Counted from the first letter of the stretch, positions 1,141-14,449 are shown. The stretch: 51,559 bases of DNA from Candidatus Aminicenantota bacterium (GCA_016934475.1 JAFGST010000010.1:1-51559); one strand, 5' to 3'. Numbers and translations are program-made. The notes: generated by a model from the sequence alone, not told the origin.

Positions 1141-1917
1141 TCAGCGTTTCAGCCGCCGGTAGTTTTTCTCGATCTGCTCCAGGAGGAGCGTCACCTCGAC
1201 TTTCTTGATGGCGGCGATCTTTTCCACGATCCGGGTGACGGCCAACGGCGAGTTGGTCCGGCCGCGCTCGGGCTCGGGAGCCAGGTAGGGGGAGTCGGTT
1301 TCGCTGAAGAGCCGCTCCAGGGGCGTTCGCTCCACGACTTCCCGGAGCTCCTCGGCTTTCTTGAAGGTGATGATGCCGGAAAAGGAAAGGAAATACCCGC
1401 GGGCGAGGATCTCGTCGGCGGCTTCCCGGTCTCCGGTGTAACAGTGAAAGACGACCGGCTGGTCGAATCCCTCCTCGTCCAGAAGCCGCAGCACCTCCGC
1501 CTCGGCGCGACGGGAATGCACGACCAGGGGCAGGGCGCACTCGCGGGCCAGAGCGATCTGCCGGCGGAAGACGGCGGCCTGGTTCTCGCGGGTCGAATGG
1601 TCGTAGTGAAAGTCCAGACCCGCCTCGCCGACGGCCAGGGTCCGGCAGCGGTCGATGAAGTCAAGGATGCGCTTCTCCGTTTTCCTTGAATAGCGATCGG
1701 CTTGGTGGGGGTGGGCCCCGATCGTGGAATCGATGCGTTCGCAGCGGGCGAGCATCTCGGCGGTCAGCGCCGGCGACCGTTCGTCGTCCGGATCGGCGAC
1801 CGTCACCAAGGCGGCGAAGCCCGCCGCGAGGCATTGCTCGATGATGACCCAGCGGTTCGCATCATAGACGGCGTCGTCCAGGTGGCAATGAAAATCGATG
1901 GGACCGCGTTGCTCCAT
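1141..1917 (-). CDS. tatD: TatD family metal-dependent hydrolase (putative DNase)
   Basis: A 258-residue TatD-type amidohydrolase-fold protein; the family hydrolyses DNA 3' ends and related phosphoesters with two divalent metals. Visible motifs in order are FHCHLDD (first metal pair), GEAGLDFHYD, VVHSRRAE, VFHCYTG and SETDSPYLAP, which cover all the family metal ligands, and the length is normal. I start at the ATG at 1917 because a TTG eighteen bases further upstream lacks a ribosome site. No Shine-Dalgarno sequence precedes the ATG, but a TACAAT hexamer ends six bases upstream, so a leaderless message is possible. It converges on gyrA. The exact substrate in this organism is not known. Confidence 0.93.
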   Translation of the reverse strand: MEQRGPIDFHCHLDDAVYDANRWVIIEQCLAAGFAALVTVADPDDERSPALTAEMLARCERIDSTIGAHPHQADRYSRKTEKRILDFIDRCRTLAVGEAGLDFHYDHSTRENQAAVFRRQIALARECALPLVVHSRRAEAEVLRLLDEEGFDQPVVFHCYTGDREAADEILARGYFLSFSGIITFKKAEELREVVERTPLERLFSETDSPYLAPEPERGRTNSPLAVTRIVEKIAAIKKVEVTLLLEQIEKNYRRLKR

Positions 1918-1974
1918 GGCGACATTGTAGCGCAAAGAGCCGCGCCGGGACAGCCCTTCCGCACCGCCGCCAGG

Positions 1975-2003
1975 TTGACGGCCCCTGGGCGACGGCGTAT
2001 AAT
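1975..2003 (+). promoter_or_regulatory. Sigma-70-type promoter for the GAF/HD-GYP gene
   Basis: TTGACG at 1975-1980 and TATAAT at 1998-2003 are separated by exactly 17 bases. The predicted start of transcription is near 2010, ten bases before the ATG at 2020. The match is close to the vegetative consensus; this is a sequence prediction only. Confidence 0.75.
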
Positions 2004-2019
2004 GGCCGGCAGGACGAGC

Positions 2020-3237
2020 ATGATCGGCGGTTTACACAAAAACAAGGTAGCTGCGATCTTGAAGATCACCGAGGACCTCAACCAGATCAAGGACATCGAC
2101 TCCTTGCTCGACCGGGTCCTGCTGGAGGCGCGGCGCTTCTGCCGCGCCGATGCCGGGTCGATCTATTTACTGGAAAAGAACCGGAAACTGCGCATCAACT
2201 ACGTGCAGAACGACACCCTGATCCAGAAGGAGAGCGGTAAGAAATACCTGTACCAGAACCACGAGCTGGACATCAACGACAAATCCATGGCCGGCTATGC
2301 GGCCATGACCAAGAAATCACTGGTTATCGACGACGCCTACGGCCTGGACGAGCGGGTCCCTTATCGCTTCAACCGCTCCTTTGACGAGACGGCGGCGTAC
2401 CGCACCCGCTCGGTCCTGACGCTGCCGCTGATCGCCAGCCACAACCGCCTGATCGGGGTCATGCAGATCATCAATTCCCTGGACGCGAGGGGGCGGGCGG
2501 TCCCCTTCCGCGGCGAGGACGAACTGGTGGTGGCCTATTTCGCCAACCATGCCGCCGGCAGCATCGAGAAAGCGAAAATGACCCGCGAGATCATCCTGCG
2601 CATGATCGGCATCGCCGAACTGCGCGATCCGGAGGAGACCGGAGCCCACGTCAACCGGGTCGGTTCCTACTCGATCGAGATCTATTCCAAATGGGCGATG
2701 AACCACAAGGTGGACGATGCCGAAATTCGCCGGGTGCGGGACGTGCTGCGCATCGCCGCCATGCTGCACGACGTCGGCAAGGTCGCCATTTCCGACATCT
2801 TGCTGAAGAAGCACGGTCCGTTGGATGACGGCGAGTACGAGCAGATGCAGCGCCACGTTCTGTTCGGAGCGCGCCTTTTCAAGAATTCCACGTCGGACTG
2901 GGACGACATGGCGGCCGAGATCGCGCTCAACCACCATGAACGCTGGGACGGCAGCGGCTATCCCGGGAAGGTCGCGGACGTGTTTGACGACCGTTGGTGC
3001 CCCGGTCCGGGGAAACGGGGCGAGGAGATCCCCTTGTTCGCCAGGATCGTCGCCCTGTCCGACGTCTATGATGCGCTGACCTCGATGCGCGCCTACAAGG
3101 AGAGCTGGCCCGAGGAGAAGGTCCTGCAATACATCCGGGAGCAGAAAGGAAGGCAGTTCGACCCGGAGCTGGTCGACGTGTTCTTTTCGATTTACGACGT
3201 GATTCGCGCCATCCGCGGGAAGTATGCCGACCAGTAG
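2020..3237 (+). CDS. GAF domain plus HD-GYP phosphohydrolase signalling protein
   Basis: A 405-residue cytoplasmic protein without membrane segments. Residues 1-190 or so form a GAF-type sensory domain (MGEL-free start MIGGLHKNKV, then LLDRVLLEARRFCRADAGSI, typical of GAF domains before HD-GYP). The C-terminal half is an HD-GYP domain: metal pair H250-D251 in LHDVGKVA, HHER at 305-308 and GYP at 313-315 in WDGSGYPG, then a late region with ALSDVYDALTS. HD-GYP proteins typically degrade cyclic di-GMP (some act on cGAMP) to the mono- or linear dinucleotide. The ATG at 2020 is chosen because it follows AGGACGAG and a strong promoter; the longer open frame upstream overlaps the tatD start region. 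It lies just ahead of the receiver/ATP-grasp gene, so the two may be co-transcribed. No GGDEF enzyme is in view. Confidence 0.9.
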   Translation: MIGGLHKNKVAAILKITEDLNQIKDIDSLLDRVLLEARRFCRADAGSIYLLEKNRKLRINYVQNDTLIQKESGKKYLYQNHELDINDKSMAGYAAMTKKSLVIDDAYGLDERVPYRFNRSFDETAAYRTRSVLTLPLIASHNRLIGVMQIINSLDARGRAVPFRGEDELVVAYFANHAAGSIEKAKMTREIILRMIGIAELRDPEETGAHVNRVGSYSIEIYSKWAMNHKVDDAEIRRVRDVLRIAAMLHDVGKVAISDILLKKHGPLDDGEYEQMQRHVLFGARLFKNSTSDWDDMAAEIALNHHERWDGSGYPGKVADVFDDRWCPGPGKRGEEIPLFARIVALSDVYDALTSMRAYKESWPEEKVLQYIREQKGRQFDPELVDVFFSIYDVIRAIRGKYADQ

Positions 3238-3303: not shown

Positions 3304-6300
3304 GTGAGCGATCCCGGAGGCGGGAGCCAAGAGCTCGGTGGCGAGATTTTTTTCTCCTGCGATCCTTCGGGAACCGCGATCGACCGCCTGATGCCCTTCA
3401 GGGTGAAACGCTTCCTGCTGGTGGCCAGCCTCTACGACTGTTTCATGCTGGAGGAAGACGGCCGCCTGCAGGACCTGCTGCTGCAGACCTACCAGAAATG
3501 GCACCTGGGCTACGTACCGCAGTTCGTCCGGGTCAGCGGCGGCGATAACGCCCTGCGGCGGATCGCCGAAGAGAAATTCGACCTGATCATCGCGCTCATG
3601 CGCCTGGGCGACATGGATCCGTTCACCTTCGGCCGGAAGGCGAAGGAGATCGATCCGCACCTGCCTGTCGTCGGGCTGGCCTACAACACCCCGGAATTGC
3701 AGCGCCTTCTCGAACTGGATGACGGTAGCGCCGTCGACCGGGTCTTCGTGTGGCAGGGGGACAGCCGGGTGCTGCTGGGGATAATCCAGTTCGTCGAGGA
3801 TCGCCGGAATGCCGACAACGACACCGAGGCCATCGGGGTGCAAAGCATCCTGCTGGTCGAGGACTCCATCGGCTTCTACTCCTCCTATCTGCCCCTGGTC
3901 TTTTCCGTCCTGCGCGAGCTGACCGAAAGCCTGCTCAAGGAGGACCTGACCTTCTCGCAGAAGCTTTTGCGTCAGAGCGCCCGCCCCCGCCTGCATCTGG
4001 CCACGACCTTCGAGGAGGCGGTCGCCGTCTTCGACCGCTTCAAGGACCATCTCCTGGGAATCATCAGCGATATCCGTTTTCCCCGGCAAGGAGTCCTGGA
4101 TCCAGAGGCCGGGAGGCGGTTTTTGCAGAAAGTCCGCTCCGAAAAGCCGCAGCTGCCCATCCTGGTGCAATCCAGCGACGACGGGGCGGAAGCGATGGCG
4201 CAAGAATCCGGAAGCCGATTTCTCTCCAAGTTATCGCCGACCCTGCTGGCCGACCTGAAGCGCATCCTGCGCTCGTTCTTCGGTTTCGGCGACCTGCTGC
4301 CGGATCCGGGAGCCGGCCAGGCCGGGTGGCGCTTCGCCAATATGGACCAGTTGTACTCCAACCTGTCCGAGCTGCCCGCGGATTCACTGAACCGGATGCT
4401 GGCCAGCGGGGAACTCGACCGCTGGCTGCGGGCCAGGACCGAGTTCTCGCTGGCCAACGCGATCAAGGATCTGCTTGTTAAGGAGGGCCTGCCCCTCGCC
4501 TCCCCGCAAGAAGCGATCAAGGAGTTGATCGCCGCTTCCCGGACCGCCAGCCGCCGCGGTTCCATTGTCCCCTACTCGCGCCATTTCCACGAGGAGTACT
4601 CGAGGTTCAGCATCATCGGCGGCGGTTCGATCGGCGGCAAGGCCCGCGGCCTGGCCTTCATGGACCGCATCCTGGCGAAATACTTCGATTCCGGGAAATT
4701 CCCAGGGACAAGCGTTTCCATTCCCCGCACCCTGGTGCTGGGCACCGACGTGTTCGATGACTTCATGAAAGAGAACGATCTGCTTCCCCAAGCCGTGGAG
4801 GATCACTCCGACGGCCACATGGCCAGCCTGTTCATCAAGGCGAACCTGCCGGGAAAGGTCGTGGGCGATCTTCGCGATTTCATCACCCATGTCACCGTGC
4901 CCCTGGCGGTCCGCTCCTCCAGCCTGTTGGAAGATTCCCTCTACCAGCCGTTCGCCGGGATTTATGCCACCAAAATGCTGCCGAACGACCAGAGCAAGAA
5001 CGACATCCGCTTCCTCAACCTGGTCAATGCCATCAAGTTCGTTTATGCCTCGACGTTTTTCCGCCAGGCCAAGGCCTACATCGCCAGCACGCCTCACCGC
5101 GTGGAGGACGAGAAAATGGCCGTCGTCATCCAGCCGGTCGTGGGGCATCTGCACCCGGACAGCTTTTATCCCGATTTTTCCGGGGTGGCCCGCTCCTACA
5201 ATTATTATCCCGTCGGTCAGGCCCGTCCCGAGGACGGGGTGGTCAATGTCGCCCTGGGCCTGGGCAAGACCATCGTCGACGGGGGCGTTTCCCTGCGCTT
5301 CACCCCGGCCTACGCCGGGGTGTTGCCGCAATTCACCTCGATCAAGGAGATGTTTCGCTTTTCCCAGCGCGATTTCTATGCCGTCGCCATGCGCCGCGCC
5401 GATTCGGTCGCCTTCCTTGACGAAGACCAGTACCTGGTCAAGCAGGGGCTGGACAAGGCGCAAAAGGACGGGGTCCTGACGTTCCTAGCCTCGACCTATT
5501 CGCCGGAGAACGACGCCGTGTACGACGGCATCAGCTTTGAGGGGCCGCGAATCATCAATTTCGCCCATATCCTGAAGAATAAGGTCTTCCCCCTGGATGC
5601 GATCACCATGCACCTGCTGCGGCTGAGCAGCGAGGCGATGAATTGCGCGGTGGAAATGGAGTTTGCCGTTACCATCGATCCGCAGAACGCGCTCCCCGCC
5701 CATTTCGCCGTTCTTCAGGTCCGCCCCCTGGTCATCCAGGACGAGCTGGTGGAGGTGGATCTGGATGAAGGGCAGATGGAGTTCGCCTTCTGCTTCAGCG
5801 ATCGCGTGCTGGGCAACGGCACCAACCGGGAGATCCGCGACATCGTGTTCGTCAAGCCGTCGTCGTTCGACGCCGTCCGCAGCCCGCAGATCGCCGGCGA
5901 AGTCGACGCGCTCAACGGCCGCCTGCGCGCGGGAAAGGCGCCCTACCTTCTCATCGGACCGGGCCGCTGGGGCAGCAGCGATCCCTGGCTGGGCATCCCG
6001 GTCAAGTGGAGCCAGATCAGCGGAGTGAAGGTCGTGGTCGAGGCGTGCCTGCCCAACATGAATGTGGATCCCTCCCAGGGATCGCACTTTTTCCAGAACA
6101 TGACCTCGCTACGCATCGGCTATTTCACGGTCGCCTTGGACCGCGAGCACGGATTCATCGATTGGCCGTGGCTGGAGGCCCTGCCCGCGGCGGAAGAAAC
6201 CGAGTTCCTGAAGCGTGTCCGCCTGCCGGAGCCTGTCACGGTGGTAATCGACGGCCGCAAAAGCAGGGGGATCATCCTGAGGCCGGGAGCTCCGGTTGGG

Positions 6301-6312
6301 GGAAATGGCTGA
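3304..6312 (+). CDS. Tandem receiver-like domains plus PEP/pyruvate-binding (PPDK-N type) ATP-grasp protein
   Basis: A 1002-residue protein of unknown function. Residues about 37-165 resemble a receiver domain but lack the acidic pair and the phospho-aspartate (FDLIIALMRLGD). Residues about 180-325 form a receiver with key residues intact: E186/D187 in LLVEDS, D256 in IISDIRFP and K309 in FLSKLSP. From about residue 430 comes the ATP-grasp fold of pyruvate phosphate dikinase and PEP synthase (GGGSIGGKARGLAFMD, then PLAVRSSSLLED and the closing LQVRPL). The C-terminus carries GPGRWGSSDPWLGIPV from residue 885 and a GSHFFQNMTSL motif. There is no phosphohistidine swivel domain and no PEP-binding TIM barrel, so it is not a PEP synthase. 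The start is GTG after GGAG. It overlaps the following phosphoesterase by eight bases and has a paralogue on the opposite strand at 7212-10394. Phosphorylation-controlled ATP-dependent phosphotransfer or ligation is inference. Confidence 0.8.
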   Translation: MSDPGGGSQELGGEIFFSCDPSGTAIDRLMPFRVKRFLLVASLYDCFMLEEDGRLQDLLLQTYQKWHLGYVPQFVRVSGGDNALRRIAEEKFDLIIALMRLGDMDPFTFGRKAKEIDPHLPVVGLAYNTPELQRLLELDDGSAVDRVFVWQGDSRVLLGIIQFVEDRRNADNDTEAIGVQSILLVEDSIGFYSSYLPLVFSVLRELTESLLKEDLTFSQKLLRQSARPRLHLATTFEEAVAVFDRFKDHLLGIISDIRFPRQGVLDPEAGRRFLQKVRSEKPQLPILVQSSDDGAEAMAQESGSRFLSKLSPTLLADLKRILRSFFGFGDLLPDPGAGQAGWRFANMDQLYSNLSELPADSLNRMLASGELDRWLRARTEFSLANAIKDLLVKEGLPLASPQEAIKELIAASRTASRRGSIVPYSRHFHEEYSRFSIIGGGSIGGKARGLAFMDRILAKYFDSGKFPGTSVSIPRTLVLGTDVFDDFMKENDLLPQAVEDHSDGHMASLFIKANLPGKVVGDLRDFITHVTVPLAVRSSSLLEDSLYQPFAGIYATKMLPNDQSKNDIRFLNLVNAIKFVYASTFFRQAKAYIASTPHRVEDEKMAVVIQPVVGHLHPDSFYPDFSGVARSYNYYPVGQARPEDGVVNVALGLGKTIVDGGVSLRFTPAYAGVLPQFTSIKEMFRFSQRDFYAVAMRRADSVAFLDEDQYLVKQGLDKAQKDGVLTFLASTYSPENDAVYDGISFEGPRIINFAHILKNKVFPLDAITMHLLRLSSEAMNCAVEMEFAVTIDPQNALPAHFAVLQVRPLVIQDELVEVDLDEGQMEFAFCFSDRVLGNGTNREIRDIVFVKPSSFDAVRSPQIAGEVDALNGRLRAGKAPYLLIGPGRWGSSDPWLGIPVKWSQISGVKVVVEACLPNMNVDPSQGSHFFQNMTSLRIGYFTVALDREHGFIDWPWLEALPAAEETEFLKRVRLPEPVTVVIDGRKSRGIILRPGAPVGGNG

Positions 6313-7201
6313 GCTGCCGGGAGGCGACATCCCTCCCGCCGAAGGACCGTTCCTATTCGCCAGTGACCTGCACGGGCGCGAGGAGCGCTACCTGAAGCTG
6401 TTCTCACTCGTCCAGGCCAGGCGGCCCAAGGCTGTTTTCCTGGGCGGCGACCTTCTGCCCTCAGGCACGCTGCTGTTCGGCAACAGCCCGGTCTGCGGAG
6501 ATTTCCTGGAAGATTTCTTGCTGCCGGGGCTGAGTCGTCTGCGCGAGAGCCTGCACGACGACTATCCGCGGCTGTTTCTGATCCTGGGCAACGACGATCC
6601 GCGCCAGGCCGAGGAAAGCTTCCTGCGCCGGGAAGCGCAGGGGCTGTGGAGCTATGTTCACGGGCGCAAGTCCCCATTGGGGCGATACGCCGTCTACGGC
6701 TACGCCTGCGTACCGCCCACGCCGTTTATGCTGAAGGACTGGGAGCGCTACGACGTTTCGCGCTTTGTCGATCCGGGTGCCGTCCCCCCCGAGGAGGGGC
6801 GATACAGTGTCGTCGTTCCCGAGGAGGAACGGGGCTTTCCCACCATCCAGGACGACTTGGTGCGGCTCGCGGGCGCTGATCCCATGGAGCGGGCCATTTT
6901 CCTGTTCCATTCCCCCCCGTACCGTACGGCGCTCGACCGGGCGGCCCTGGACGGCCGCCAGGTGGATGGCGCCCCCCTCGACGTGCACGTGGGCAGCATC
7001 GCAATCAAGCGATTCATCGAGGAGCGCCAGCCCCGGGTCACCCTGCACGGCCATGTCCACGAGTCGGCGCGCCTGACCGGCTCCTGGCAAGAAACGATCG
7101 GCCGGACCCATTGCTTCTCCGCGGCCCACTCCGGCCCCGAGCTGGCCGTGGTCTCGTTCGACCCGGCGAATCCTGGGGAGGCAGCCCGGTGCTTGCTATG
7201 A
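6305..7201 (+). CDS. Calcineurin-like metallophosphoesterase
   Basis: A 298-residue cytoplasmic enzyme of the calcineurin-like phosphoesterase superfamily. The full set of two-metal motifs is present: FASDLHG (D-x-H), LGGDLLPSG, LGNDDPRQ (G-N-D), FHSPPYRT and LHGHVHES (G-H-x-H). The substrate class (nucleotide, phosphoprotein or phosphodiester) cannot be told from these. The ATG at 6305 follows GGGGGA and lies inside the end of the ATP-grasp gene (eight-base overlap), so the two proteins are translationally coupled and probably act together, perhaps with the esterase removing what the ATP-grasp protein adds. A TTG nine bases upstream is an alternative start. The gene converges on the second ATP-grasp gene. 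Confidence 0.88.
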   Translation: MAELPGGDIPPAEGPFLFASDLHGREERYLKLFSLVQARRPKAVFLGGDLLPSGTLLFGNSPVCGDFLEDFLLPGLSRLRESLHDDYPRLFLILGNDDPRQAEESFLRREAQGLWSYVHGRKSPLGRYAVYGYACVPPTPFMLKDWERYDVSRFVDPGAVPPEEGRYSVVVPEEERGFPTIQDDLVRLAGADPMERAIFLFHSPPYRTALDRAALDGRQVDGAPLDVHVGSIAIKRFIEERQPRVTLHGHVHESARLTGSWQETIGRTHCFSAAHSGPELAVVSFDPANPGEAARCLL

Positions 7202-7211
7202 CCGCGGCAAC

Positions 7212-10200
7212 TTATTGGCTTTTAAGGGCCAGGGGGCGGGCGGCGTTGGTCGCGGCGTCGATCTTGACGGCGAAGCTGGTCTTCTTGGCGATATCCTCGT
7301 CGGTCAGCAGGTGATAGTCGAGCAGCCCCCCGGATTTGTAGCCGGTGCGCGAGTAGTTGATCTCGGCCAGGCACAGGCTCCAGCCCTCGAGCCAGAGAAC
7401 AAGTTCCTGCTTCTGCCGCTCGCTCCCTTGGAAGTGGATCAGGAGGTCGATGTCGCTGCCAGGACCGGCCGTGGCGTTCTTCGTCGAGCCGAAGACGTAC
7501 ATGGCCTTGACGCCGAAGCGACCCGGATCAAGCTGGCCGGCGATTCGCTCGGCCATGCGCAGCCGCCAGCCCCAATGGTCGTCGCTGGCCGTCTCGGAGA
7601 CCTCGACCCGTTCCCGCTCGGCACTCGCCTGCGAGTCGGGCGTGGCCAAAAAGCCCAGAGCCTCGCCTAGGTCGGCGTTCATCAGCACCCGCAGCACCCT
7701 GCCGCTGGCGGCGCGCGGAACCTCGATGACGCGGATGGTGTCGGCGAGGGCCGCCGACTCGGGCAGGATGTCGGGGAAGTAGTTTTGGGCATCCAGCAGG
7801 AAACGCTCGTTGAAGATGATACCCGGGTCGTCGGGGTAGAGGGGCAGGTAGCGGATCGATGATTCGACCAGGTCCTGGAAAAAATGGGTGCCGAACGACA
7901 GCTCCGGGACGTAGTTGCCCTTCTTGCGGGCGATCTCGATGAGGGCGGCGGTGTTGTTGAAATCCGAGTAGGTTACGGGCACGCCGAGCTTGATGTCCCC
8001 GCGGCTGCCCCAGCGCCCCGGCCCCATGAGGATGAACCGGCGCTTGGGCAGGAGCTTGTTGAGCTTGCCGACGGCCTGGCCGACCTCGATCATCTGCTCA
8101 CTGCGCTCGAGCAGGGAATAGTTCTCCGGGTCCACGTAGACAATGTGGGTGATGTCGGGAAGCTTGCCGTTCGAGATGTAGCGGTTGGCGGTGAAAATGA
8201 TCCGGTCCTCGGCGATGTCCTTGGGGATGAGGCTGGCCACGTTGCCCGCGGTCGAGCTTTGCGGCCGGCACTGGAGAAGGTAGAGCTGGCGGCCGTCGTG
8301 GGCGAACTCGATGTCCACCGGGGTGCTCATCTTCTCCTGGAGCGTCTTCAGCATGCACTGCAGCTGCTTGACGAAGGGGGTGCGCGAGATCCAGCCCTCG
8401 AAGGTGACGAACAGATTCGCCTTGCTGAAGTCGAGGCCGAGGGCCGAGGGGGAATAGATGTGGTCGTCCTCGTAGACGGAGACGATATTCTCGATGCCGG
8501 GATATTGGGAGCCGCACTCTGTCAGCAGGGCGGTGATCTCCATGGACTCGAACGAGCAGGTCTTCAGGTTGATGACGTCGATGCGCCGCGGCGAGTAGCG
8601 CATTGTCTCGTCGGCGGTGACGTTGACGCGCAGGTTGGGGATGCCCGGCGAGATCAGGATCGGGTAATCGTCGCTGACGCGGTCCACGGCGCGGGTGCCC
8701 AGGCCGGGGACGAGGCGGGCCAGCCCGTCCTCGCGCTTGATGCGCGGCGACCAGCGGAACTCGTTGTTGCTGAAGGCGACGCCGGCGAAGGCGGGGAGAT
8801 AGTAGTCGCCCACTTTTTGCCCGACCACTTCCTGGATCATGATGCCCATCTCCTCATGGAAGTCCAGCAGCCCGCGCTCGGCGCGGTATTCGATGGGGTC
8901 GGGGCCGAAGATGGAGGCGTAGACCTCGGCGATGGCGTCGGTCAGCGCATCCAGCCGCTCCTGTTTCGTTCCCTGGTTGGCCAGGAACAGACTCTTGTAT
9001 TTGCCGGAAAAGGCCATGCCCATGCGGTCTTCCAGTAGGCTCGAGCTGCGCACGATCAGCGGCTTGTTGCCCAGATCGTCGAGGGCCATAGACAGCCCCT
9101 TGATGATCTCGATGGGGAAATGGGCGTTTTTCAGCAGCTGGACGACATTATGGTACTCGAGGCGGATCTGGTCGATTTCCTTGTATTTCTGTTCGTTCAC
9201 TTCCTCGAGGTTGTTGTAGCTCAGGAAGTTCAGGATGGCGTCGGTGGTGATGTACCAGGTCTTGGGGAACTTGAGCTCGCACAGGACCTCGGAGTGGTCG
9301 CCCGGCTTGGTCAGGATTTTCTGCGCCAGGAACAGCCCGGCGCTCTTTCCTCCCAGGCGGCCGTAGCCGTTGGCGGGATAAATGATGCGCTGCACGAGGT
9401 CGTAAAAATGGCGCACCTCGATGTGGTTCTTGGCGATGTTGATGAAATCGAGCTGGTCGGAGAAGAAGCGGCGGATGAGCGAGACGCGAAGCCCCTTCTC
9501 CATGGGGGGCGAGAGCTCATACGTGCCGCCGGAGATGTAGTGGTAATGGGTGATGGCGTTGATGACGTCGACCAGGGGCATGTCGATGTTGTTGATCGCC
9601 CGGCTCAGGAAGCTGGCCTTGTCCTCCTGGATCCACTTCTGGATGCGACCCAGAATATCCGAGTCGCTCAGGTAGCGCGCCGCGATGCGGAACGTCTTGT
9701 CGCTGAGCTCCAGGAGCTCCAGCTGCGATTTCTTCTGGCTGGGGCGGTTCATGTCGTCGCTCATCTCGGTCTGGGCGGCGCCCTGGTCCTTGCTCAAAGA
9801 CTTCAAAAGTTCCTTGGCCTCCATAACGCCGTTCCAGAAGAGGTGGTAGACCATCTTGCGACCCAGGTGGATGTAGAGATTCTGGTCGGTGCGGCGCAGC
9901 AGGTCGATGACGACCATCCATTCCTTCTTGATCTTGTCGCTGAGGTCCTTCTGCGCCGTCTCCCATTCGCGCGAGACCTGCTCCAGCTTGAAATGCAGGA
10001 CGGTGCGGCCGATGCGCTCGGCGATGGTCTGCAGCAGTTTTTGCTCGTCCTTGAGGAAATAGCTGTTTTCCGTCTGTGGGACGTCACGGGTGTAGGAAAC
10101 CTCGATGAAGCCGATGACCTTCTCCTCCTCCTTGATGTCGACGCGCTGCACGCGCGTCGACGGTGTAAATCCCGGGCTCTGGTAGGTGTGGTCCTCGTGG

Positions 10201-10394
10201 ACGATCCGCACCTGGCAGATGTTGGGGAATTGGTAGCCGCCGGGGATGACCTGGAGCAGCTGGGTGAAGATCTCGGACAAAGGCAGGTTGGTCCTGGTGA
10301 GAAGCTCCTCGACCTGGTACAGGCAGTTCAGTTCCTTGGCCCGCTCGCGCATGTCGTGGAGCAGCTTGTCGATCGGGTTTTGCGAATTGTTCAT
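7212..10394 (-). CDS. GAF-like plus PEP/pyruvate-binding ATP-grasp protein fused to a C-terminal nucleotidyltransferase
   Basis: A 1060-residue multidomain protein. Residues 15-145 or so are a GAF-like sensory domain opening with KELNCLYQVEELL, very like the N-terminus of the sensor kinase at 22999-25107. Residues about 340-725 are a PPDK-N/PEP-synthase-type ATP-grasp (YGRLGGKSAGLFLAQ, LIVRSSSLLEDRMG, ending LLQCRPQ). A GPGRWGSRGDIKLGVPV module begins at residue 791 and is followed by GTHFFQDL, as in the paralogue at 3304-6312. The last 100 residues form a pol-beta-type nucleotidyltransferase: G969-S970 in YVFGSTKNA and D981/D983 in GSDIDLLI, so the metal-binding aspartates are intact. There is no phosphohistidine or TIM-barrel domain. 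The ATG follows GGGGGAGG. It lies downstream of gdhA on the same strand, separated by a hairpin. The function is unknown. Confidence 0.8.
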   Translation of the reverse strand: MNNSQNPIDKLLHDMRERAKELNCLYQVEELLTRTNLPLSEIFTQLLQVIPGGYQFPNICQVRIVHEDHTYQSPGFTPSTRVQRVDIKEEEKVIGFIEVSYTRDVPQTENSYFLKDEQKLLQTIAERIGRTVLHFKLEQVSREWETAQKDLSDKIKKEWMVVIDLLRRTDQNLYIHLGRKMVYHLFWNGVMEAKELLKSLSKDQGAAQTEMSDDMNRPSQKKSQLELLELSDKTFRIAARYLSDSDILGRIQKWIQEDKASFLSRAINNIDMPLVDVINAITHYHYISGGTYELSPPMEKGLRVSLIRRFFSDQLDFINIAKNHIEVRHFYDLVQRIIYPANGYGRLGGKSAGLFLAQKILTKPGDHSEVLCELKFPKTWYITTDAILNFLSYNNLEEVNEQKYKEIDQIRLEYHNVVQLLKNAHFPIEIIKGLSMALDDLGNKPLIVRSSSLLEDRMGMAFSGKYKSLFLANQGTKQERLDALTDAIAEVYASIFGPDPIEYRAERGLLDFHEEMGIMIQEVVGQKVGDYYLPAFAGVAFSNNEFRWSPRIKREDGLARLVPGLGTRAVDRVSDDYPILISPGIPNLRVNVTADETMRYSPRRIDVINLKTCSFESMEITALLTECGSQYPGIENIVSVYEDDHIYSPSALGLDFSKANLFVTFEGWISRTPFVKQLQCMLKTLQEKMSTPVDIEFAHDGRQLYLLQCRPQSSTAGNVASLIPKDIAEDRIIFTANRYISNGKLPDITHIVYVDPENYSLLERSEQMIEVGQAVGKLNKLLPKRRFILMGPGRWGSRGDIKLGVPVTYSDFNNTAALIEIARKKGNYVPELSFGTHFFQDLVESSIRYLPLYPDDPGIIFNERFLLDAQNYFPDILPESAALADTIRVIEVPRAASGRVLRVLMNADLGEALGFLATPDSQASAERERVEVSETASDDHWGWRLRMAERIAGQLDPGRFGVKAMYVFGSTKNATAGPGSDIDLLIHFQGSERQKQELVLWLEGWSLCLAEINYSRTGYKSGGLLDYHLLTDEDIAKKTSFAVKIDAATNAARPLALKSQ

Positions 10395-10455: not shown

Positions 10456-11742
10456 TTACACCCAGCCCCTCAGCCTGCAGGCTTCGGCGACGCGGGCGAC
10501 GGCGATCATGTAAGCGGCGTCGCGCATGAAGGCCTTTTTCTGCTTGGCCAGCCCGTACACGGCGTGGAAAGCCGCGGTCATGACGTTGTCGAGCTTGCTC
10601 AGGACCTCTTCCTTGGTCCAGAAGTAGTTCATGTTGCACTGGACCTGCTCGAAATAGCTGCAGGTGACTCCGCCGGCATTGGCCAAAAAGTCGGGGATGA
10701 CGAAGATATTCTTTTTCTTGAACACTTCGTCGGCCTCGGGAGTGGTCGGGCCGTTGGCGCCCTCGGCGACCACCTTCATCTTGGCGGAGATCTTCTGCAC
10801 CGTCTCGGCGTTGATCTGGTTTTCCAGCGCCGCCGGCACCAGGATGTCGACATCCTGTCCGATCCAGGCCTCGGCGTCGGCCACTTCGTAGCCCAGGCCT
10901 TTGGCCTTGGCCTTGTCGATGCCGCCGAACTTGTCGGTGATGCCCAGCAGCTCGTCGAGGTCGATGCCGCTCTTCTTGATGAAGGTGTAGGACTTGTTGT
11001 CTTTCTGGTCCCAGCAGGAGACGCATACGGCCTTGCCGCCGTACTCCTGGTATAGGCGGACGGCATACTGCGAGACGTTGCCGAAGCCCTGGAAAGCGGC
11101 GCTCGTGTTCTTGATCTCGATGCCCAGCTCGCTCAGGGCCTCGCGCAGGGTGTAGATGACGCCGAAGCCCGTGGCCTCGGTGCGCCCCAGCGAGCCCCCC
11201 ATGCCGACCGGCTTGCCGGTGATGAAGCCGGGATACTTGGCACCGGTGAGCTTCTCGTACTCGTCCATCATCCAGATCATGTGCTGGGCGTTGGTCATGA
11301 CGTCGGGGGCCGGGACGTCCTGCAGCGGGCCGACGTTGCGCACCACCTGGCGCACCCAGCCGCGGCAGATCTGCTCCTGTTCGCGCATGGAGAGATTGTG
11401 CGGGTCGCAGATTACGCCGCCCTTGCCGCCGCCCAGCGGGATGTCGACGACGGCGCATTTCCAGGTCATCCAGGTGGCCAGGGCCTTCACCGTGTCGATG
11501 GTCTCCTGGGGGTGGAAGCGGATGCCGCCCTTGCAAGGGCCGCGCGAATCGTTGTGTTGCACCCGGAATCCCTGGAACACCTTCACGGTGCCGTCGTCCA
11601 TCTTGACCGGAATGGAGAAATGGTACTCGCGCAGCGGGTTGCGCAGCAGATCGCGCGTCCCCGGATCCAGGCCCAGTTGCTCGGCGACGCCGTCGAATTG
11701 CTGCTGCGCCATCTTGAACGCGTTGAACGATTTATCAGCCAT
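10456..11742 (-). CDS. gdhA: Glutamate dehydrogenase
   Basis: A 428-residue hexameric-type glutamate dehydrogenase interconverting glutamate and 2-oxoglutarate plus ammonia with NAD(P)(H). Visible are the substrate-binding stretch GPCKGGIRFHP, the catalytic-lysine motif PLGGGKGGVI, DVPAPDVMT, and the cofactor-domain region GFGNVSQYAV (the Rossmann glycine loop reads FQGFGNVS). The length matches the roughly 420-450-residue bacterial and archaeal enzymes. The ATG at 11742 is preceded by AAGGAGG at ideal spacing; a longer frame upstream has no such signal. In a fermentative cell it would link amino-acid nitrogen to the reductant pools that the Nfn and Stn complexes handle. Cofactor preference cannot be assigned with confidence from the sequence alone. 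Confidence 0.95.
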   Translation of the reverse strand: MADKSFNAFKMAQQQFDGVAEQLGLDPGTRDLLRNPLREYHFSIPVKMDDGTVKVFQGFRVQHNDSRGPCKGGIRFHPQETIDTVKALATWMTWKCAVVDIPLGGGKGGVICDPHNLSMREQEQICRGWVRQVVRNVGPLQDVPAPDVMTNAQHMIWMMDEYEKLTGAKYPGFITGKPVGMGGSLGRTEATGFGVIYTLREALSELGIEIKNTSAAFQGFGNVSQYAVRLYQEYGGKAVCVSCWDQKDNKSYTFIKKSGIDLDELLGITDKFGGIDKAKAKGLGYEVADAEAWIGQDVDILVPAALENQINAETVQKISAKMKVVAEGANGPTTPEADEVFKKKNIFVIPDFLANAGGVTCSYFEQVQCNMNYFWTKEEVLSKLDNVMTAAFHAVYGLAKQKKAFMRDAAYMIAVARVAEACRLRGWV

Positions 11743-11777
11743 GGGGTTTACCTCCTTGTGCATTCGTGAGTACGGCC

Positions 11778-11807
11778 ATTTTACCACGCCGTCGGTCCTT
11801 TTGTAAA
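11778..11807 (-). promoter_or_regulatory. Promoter of gdhA
   Basis: On the minus strand TTTACA (11802-11807) and TAAAAT (11778-11783) are 18 bases apart, about 35 bases ahead of the gdhA ATG and its AAGGAGG site. The surrounding AT-rich patch stands out against the GC-rich background. Confidence 0.6.
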
Positions 11808-11858: not shown

Positions 11859-14429
<2,571 letters not shown>

Positions 14430-14449
14430 GGGGCCTCCCTGCAAGATTC

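Follow-up and report, generated by a model that had tools for sequence, protein, structure and literature searches.

PPDK and PEP synthase (PpsA) join a PPDK_N ATP-grasp domain to a swivelling phosphohistidine domain (PF00391, motif GGxTSH) and a PEP/pyruvate TIM barrel. The rifampin phosphotransferase RPH (5hv1-5hv6, 5fbs) contains drug-binding and histidine domains, and HpeI (9goj) is a PPDK_N-type ATP-grasp protein of 330 residues; RPH, PPDK and HpeI all act on small molecules. The window, that is, the whole 51,559-nucleotide stretch analysed here from Candidatus Aminicenantota bacterium (GCA_016934475.1 JAFGST010000010.1:1-51559), encodes two PPDK_N proteins, P1 and P2 (Table 1), whose genes are the only ones with this domain found in the 2.57-Mb assembly (about 80% complete). 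Their ATP-grasp domains have Lys, Arg, Glu, Gln and Arg at positions equivalent to those of PPDK and PpsA, but a new C-terminal module stands where those enzymes have the swivelling domain and the TIM barrel. Sensor domains and this GPGRWG/HFF module also distinguish P1 and P2 from RPH, while HpeI is too short to accommodate the module. P1 and P2 are paralogues belonging to an undescribed PPDK-like family with a constant core, composed of PPDK_N and the new C-terminal module. We define it by GPGRWG and SxGxHFF motifs in the module behind PPDK_N together with a glutamate dehydrogenase (GDH) gene nearby, and the P1/P2 locus shows both. No study of this family was found in the open-access literature, where the domain was looked for in combination with GDH or response regulators.

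Table 1. Features of the P1/P2 locus, in window coordinates
Feature	Position	Strand	Description
GAF + HD-GYP protein	1702..3237	+	upstream of P1; TTG taken as start in the ORF call, real start probably later
P1	3304..6312	+	1002 aa, GTG start; class A: REC1 (degenerate)-REC2-helical linker-PPDK_N-C-module
P1 REC1	3409..3798	+	residues 36-165; lacks the phosphoacceptor Asp
P1 REC2	3841..4278	+	residues 180-325; canonical receiver, D256, S290, K309 conserved
P1 PPDK_N ATP-grasp	4627..5754	+	residues 442-817; K446, R537, E786, Q805, R807
P1 C-module	5755..6291	+	residues 818-996; N871, GRWG 887-890, D893, G897, E913, S924, G926, H928-F929-F930
P1 H928 codon	6085..6087	+	invariant His, helix N-terminus; candidate phosphoacceptor
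Calcineurin-like metallophosphoesterase	6296..7201	+	PF00149, E=4.2e-10; 17-nt overlap with P1
P2	7212..10394	-	1060 aa; class C: GAF-like-helical-PPDK_N-C-module-nucleotidyltransferase
P2 nucleotidyltransferase	7287..7583	-	about residues 938-1036; GS..DxD, D981, D983, D1026
P2 C-module	7644..8231	-	about residues 722-917; H837, equivalent of P1 H928
P2 PPDK_N ATP-grasp	8235..9359	-	residues 346-720; K350, R449, E696, Q708, R710
P2 GAF-like domain	9945..10289	-	about residues 36-150
GDH, ELFV family	10456..11787	-	directly upstream of P2, same strand, 61 nt away; translation probably begins near 11742, giving the 428 aa seen in relatives

The original prediction of two ORFs of these lengths with PPDK-N ATP-grasp folds holds, PF01326 matching P1 with E=7.9e-33 and P2 with E=2.5e-61. 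The AlphaFold model of P1 (mean pLDDT 89.8) has HpeI as its best Foldseek match (E=6.3e-10). Two receiver-like domains were proposed for this protein; Pfam Response_reg stays slightly under its cut-off there (28.4 versus 30.2 bits), and both are REC folds in the model, with PleD-type receivers matched by Foldseek. REC2 has the REC fold together with the Asp, Thr/Ser and Lys expected of a response regulator, conserved in 86 (D256), 83 (S290) and 86 (K309) of 86 sequences; REC1 lacks the Asp. P1 and its class thus resemble response regulators with enzymatic output by virtue of the canonical REC2, but differ from them in that REC1 is degenerate and the output is the PPDK_N-module core.

The closest solved folds to the P2 model (mean pLDDT 82.0) are those of RPH (E=2.2e-14; TMt 0.73 to the ATP domain in 5hv6), and Foldseek also aligns the model with the PPDK structures 1kbl and 1dik. 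The two additional domains predicted for P2 are borne out, the GAF fold by structure alone (NifA GAF, 8jrc) and the nucleotidyltransferase both by PF01909 (E=1.1e-7) and by Foldseek. This last domain contains the GS..DxD motif and third Asp of its superfamily (D981 and D983 each conserved in 20/21 sequences, D1026 in 20/20).

Five architectures are built on the one core. Besides class A (REC-REC-core, ~1000 aa) and class C (GAF-core-NTase, ~1070 aa), they comprise class B (core alone, ~580 aa), class D (~775 aa) and a long class, E (~1170-1280 aa), in which PAS, REC or DUF5752 domains occur in the members scanned. The REC, GAF and PAS sensor domains vary and the core is constant. Open frames of 1295-1538 aa from the phylum search do not establish GDH fusions: the two examined (G121 and G066) are class C frames running upstream over class B.

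The module common to P1 and P2, C-terminal to PPDK_N, spans about 180 residues. It contains GPGRWGS at G885 (P1) and G791 (P2) and GSHFFQ/GTHFFQ motifs in both proteins, as the original prediction had it. K446, R537, E786 and Q805 of the ATP-grasp domain are essentially invariant across 144 core sequences, and R807 is conserved in 93%; so too are the module residues N871, G887, R888, W889, G890, G897, E913, S924, G926, H928, F929 and F930, with D893 conserved in 99%. The ATP-binding residues, whose absence had been named as grounds for abandoning the prediction, are therefore present (Lys, Arg, Glu and Gln in essentially all 144 cores). Because the motif residues are invariant in cores from many phyla, the resemblance between the two modules is not due to chance. 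Conservation at this level in both ATP-grasp domain and module, including the polar set N871, R888, W889, D893, E913, S924 and H928, suggests that the module is probably catalytic.

A profile of the module alone (A2, later A6) was used as search query. It matched in 25/41 relatives and in 53 of the 119 genomes of a phylum-wide sample, and hit at least 562 stretches in a scan of species genomes. Most loci of the analysis are metagenome assemblies, with ORF-based gene calls made by script. The 80 loci kept from the scan are labelled as Ignavibacteria, Bacteroidota, Desulfobacterota, Calditrichota, Acidobacteria, Gemmatimonadales, KSB1 and others. Genomes carry several family paralogues, and in nearly all complete ORFs the ATP-grasp GGK motif precedes the module by about 366-398 residues. 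Scans of 116 modules gave no credible Pfam or NCBIfam match and no PDB sequence match was obtained; identity with a known family was therefore rejected, VAMP7 matches at E>0.06 being attributed to chance.

The proposed lack of phosphohistidine and TIM-barrel domains stands as far as sequence searches go. PF00391 matches neither P1, P2 nor any of the 116 modules, and the PEP-utilizers C-terminal TIM barrel has no match in P1 or P2, where no sequence of that size is left after the module. Comparison of the module with PF00391 by hhalign gave a probability under 1%; the full core reached a Prob of about 16%, two histidines coinciding for P2 and not for P1, so that identity of module and PF00391 was rejected as not significant. 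Both AlphaFold models give the module the order strand-strand-helix-strand-(GRWG loop)-strand-(SxGx loop)-helix at HFF-strand-..-strand pair, the final hairpin of P1 surrounding 'IDG', and place H928/H837 within the opening residues of a helix that follows a Gly-containing loop. The central phosphohistidine domain of PPDK has a similar order of strands and helices and a comparable placement of its His. The modelled module would thus resemble the swivelling domain of PPDK, although profile comparison does not establish homology. On these models, the module with its invariant His may replace the swivelling phosphohistidine domain, possibly as a very diverged version of it, which would qualify the original claim, and H928/H837 is the likely candidate for phosphocarrier.

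The link of the module family to GDH is strong. Of the 53 module-bearing genomes in the unbiased phylum sample, at least 40 have a GDH gene within 6 kb of the module, against about 0.4 expected from random placement (about 100-fold over chance), with the reservation that these genomes are related and the count does not represent independent events. Neighbour clustering likewise put GDH far ahead of every other adjacent family, with 61 adjacencies in 46/118 loci, mostly on the same strand; these counts are underestimates, since ORFs of cluster c20 (at least in L131 and L133) look antisense to GDH. The 57 neighbours that were aligned all score with GDH models, and the conserved Lys/Asp columns are intact in every one. 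GDH adjoins the family in contigs of Ignavibacteria, Bacteroidota, Calditrichota, Acidobacteria, Gemmatimonadales, KSB1 and Thermoleophilia, and in only 3/35 loci of Bacteroidales. In relatives where the sequence upstream of a class C gene is intact, that gene generally follows GDH. The GDHs form two clades, ~30% identical to each other: members of clade 1 (~449 aa) accompany class A (46 cases, with one of class D), and those of the ~430-aa clade go with classes B, C and D (21/22 linked).

Other neighbours recur as well: three Desulfobacterales loci encode a Glu_synthase-domain protein upstream of the class A gene (the domain was demonstrated in one of these proteins), and five loci have genes for 2-oxoacid:ferredoxin oxidoreductase subunits upstream of the family member. 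The recurrent neighbours share a theme, the 2-oxoacid/glutamate node. The linkage to GDH is also compatible with an allosteric partner or with a metabolic step. The original prediction omitted the GDH gene directly upstream of P2.

The best explanation, which we hold tentatively and rate just short of an even chance, is an ATP-dependent phosphotransferase, gated by signals, that acts through the module His on GDH or on the GDH reaction; the chemistry that follows is a proposal. ATP on PPDK_N would phosphorylate or pyrophosphorylate the His (H928 in P1, H837 in P2); the group would then move on to an acceptor, for which GDH is the likeliest choice, and alter the activity of that acceptor. Signals would enter through REC2 in class A, GAF in class C or PAS/REC in the long class, and the metallophosphoesterase could reverse the modification. 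In class C, a second mark might be attached or taken off by the nucleotidyltransferase, in the way that GlnE/GlnD act on glutamine synthetase/PII. The likeness is one of logic only, a nucleotidyltransferase beside an enzyme of glutamate metabolism: P2 differs from GlnE/GlnD in its PF01909-type domain, its architecture and its association with GDH instead of GS, and neither P1 nor P2 has a Pfam or NCBIfam match to the GlnE/GlnD family. A signal-controlled phosphotransferase on GDH fits because the ATP site is intact, the His invariant, the sensors varied and the GDH partner matched by subtype. The ATP-using signalling or modification system originally proposed agrees with the first and third of these, but its target, then given as unknown, is more specifically GDH as likely target or partner.

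Alternatively, the core may be a metabolic enzyme that phosphorylates or ligates 2-oxoglutarate, glutamate or ammonia, the operon forming a short pathway whose flux is set by REC/GAF. The small-molecule substrates of RPH, PPDK and HpeI, the closest solved PPDK_N structures, are in keeping with this, as are the GDH, Glu_synthase-domain and 2-oxoacid oxidoreductase genes nearby. However, the proteins lack a separate acceptor-substrate domain beyond the module, placement of the core in receiver, GAF and PAS proteins is more regulation-like, and distinct subfamilies pair with two distinct GDH clades, so that we consider an enzyme of this kind unlikely. The tight, subtype-matched GDH linkage, the sensor domains and the several paralogues per genome would also suit a non-covalent regulator, in which PPDK_N serves as a sensor of ATP (energy charge) and the module as a binding site for 2-oxoglutarate, glutamate or GDH, such binding activating or inhibiting GDH; a full ATP-grasp catalytic set and invariant R, W, E and H in the module exceed the needs of a sensor, which makes this quite improbable. 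That the proteins are plain variants of PEP synthase or PPDK in an incidental GDH neighbourhood is hardly credible: PEP synthases are among the best-matching curated models, but the scores fall far under every equivalog cut-off (56 versus 598 bits at best), the absence of PF00391 and the TIM barrel leaves no known pyruvate/PEP site, and GDH linkage far exceeds chance.

GDH is the enzyme at the junction of carbon and nitrogen metabolism, and the limited full-text literature consulted yielded no description of a covalent regulator dedicated to it and widespread in bacteria. If GDH is the acceptor of the proposed phosphotransferase, the family could represent a hitherto undescribed covalent GDH control system, present in many phyla, in which a dikinase-type ATP-grasp domain and a new phosphohistidine domain operate under two-component, GAF or PAS control as a GDH counterpart of GlnE/GlnD; we regard this broader reading as possible rather than probable. 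The module would also be a new C-terminal partner for the dikinase superfamily. The vague annotation 'PEP/pyruvate-binding protein' is replaced by a directly testable hypothesis.

As a shared modification-site residue in linked GDHs, F57, F91, H92 and others were considered, being common to both linked clades and missing in many unlinked clade-2 GDHs. They are not a modification-site signature, since unlinked clade-1 GDHs have them too.

Both the metallophosphoesterase overlapping P1 and the GAF/HD-GYP protein upstream were correctly recognised in the original prediction, but the neighbourhood conservation looked for in them is weak and the conserved neighbour is GDH. Relatives of the metallophosphoesterase lie next to family genes in 15 loci, mostly from one family plus a Calditrichaceae locus, and the HD-GYP neighbour occurs in the window's genus only (9 loci). 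Both were therefore rejected as core partners, the former as partly conserved and the latter as genus-limited. In this genus, P1 adjoins the HD-GYP gene and is near GDH only indirectly.

The locus L201 (contig C36 of genome G121) carries two glutamate dehydrogenase (GDH) genes, each with its own module subfamily beside it, in the convergent layout seen in the window. Gene order on this single contig is GDH, class A (REC-REC-core) facing class C (GAF-core-NTase), class B (core alone), GDH.

In the GDH alignment, Phe57, Phe91 and His92 (window GDH numbering) are common to the family-linked GDHs, whereas they are missing from most unlinked members of clade 2 (~430 aa); unlinked clade-1 GDHs (~449 aa) also carry all three residues.

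At three loci (L057, L065 and L074) class A has a 527-564 aa protein upstream and GDH on the opposite side, an arrangement that is a GOGAT-like/dikinase-like/GDH cluster; the Glu_synthase domain (PF01645) was shown for the L074 member. Alpha and beta subunits of 2-oxoacid:ferredoxin oxidoreductase lie directly upstream of class E (~1170-1280 aa) or class A genes in L036, L038, L049, L064 and L095, on contigs labelled Bacteroidales/Chlorobiota.

A diverged relative at locus L200 has VPGRLGT, GTHFF and, replacing LQxRP, LTELP; no PF02812 GDH was detected in the genome carrying it. This protein represents an outgroup subfamily, possibly with another partner.

Coordinates of the diverged relative and of a conserved neighbour of the window GDH gene
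Feature	Location	Strand	Remarks
Diverged relative, 571 aa	L200:1460-3172	+	VPGRLGT, GTHFF, LTELP
ClpB-type AAA chaperone	window 11859-14444	-	upstream of GDH; kept across the genus

Other neighbours also recur: two proteins, one ThyX-like (Thy1) and the other a small AAA_28 protein, beside class D (~775 aa) and one class A gene (L134, L136, L140, L141), and, adjoining class A, genes resembling those of LexA and DNA polymerase IV (IMS) (L137, L138, L143, L145).
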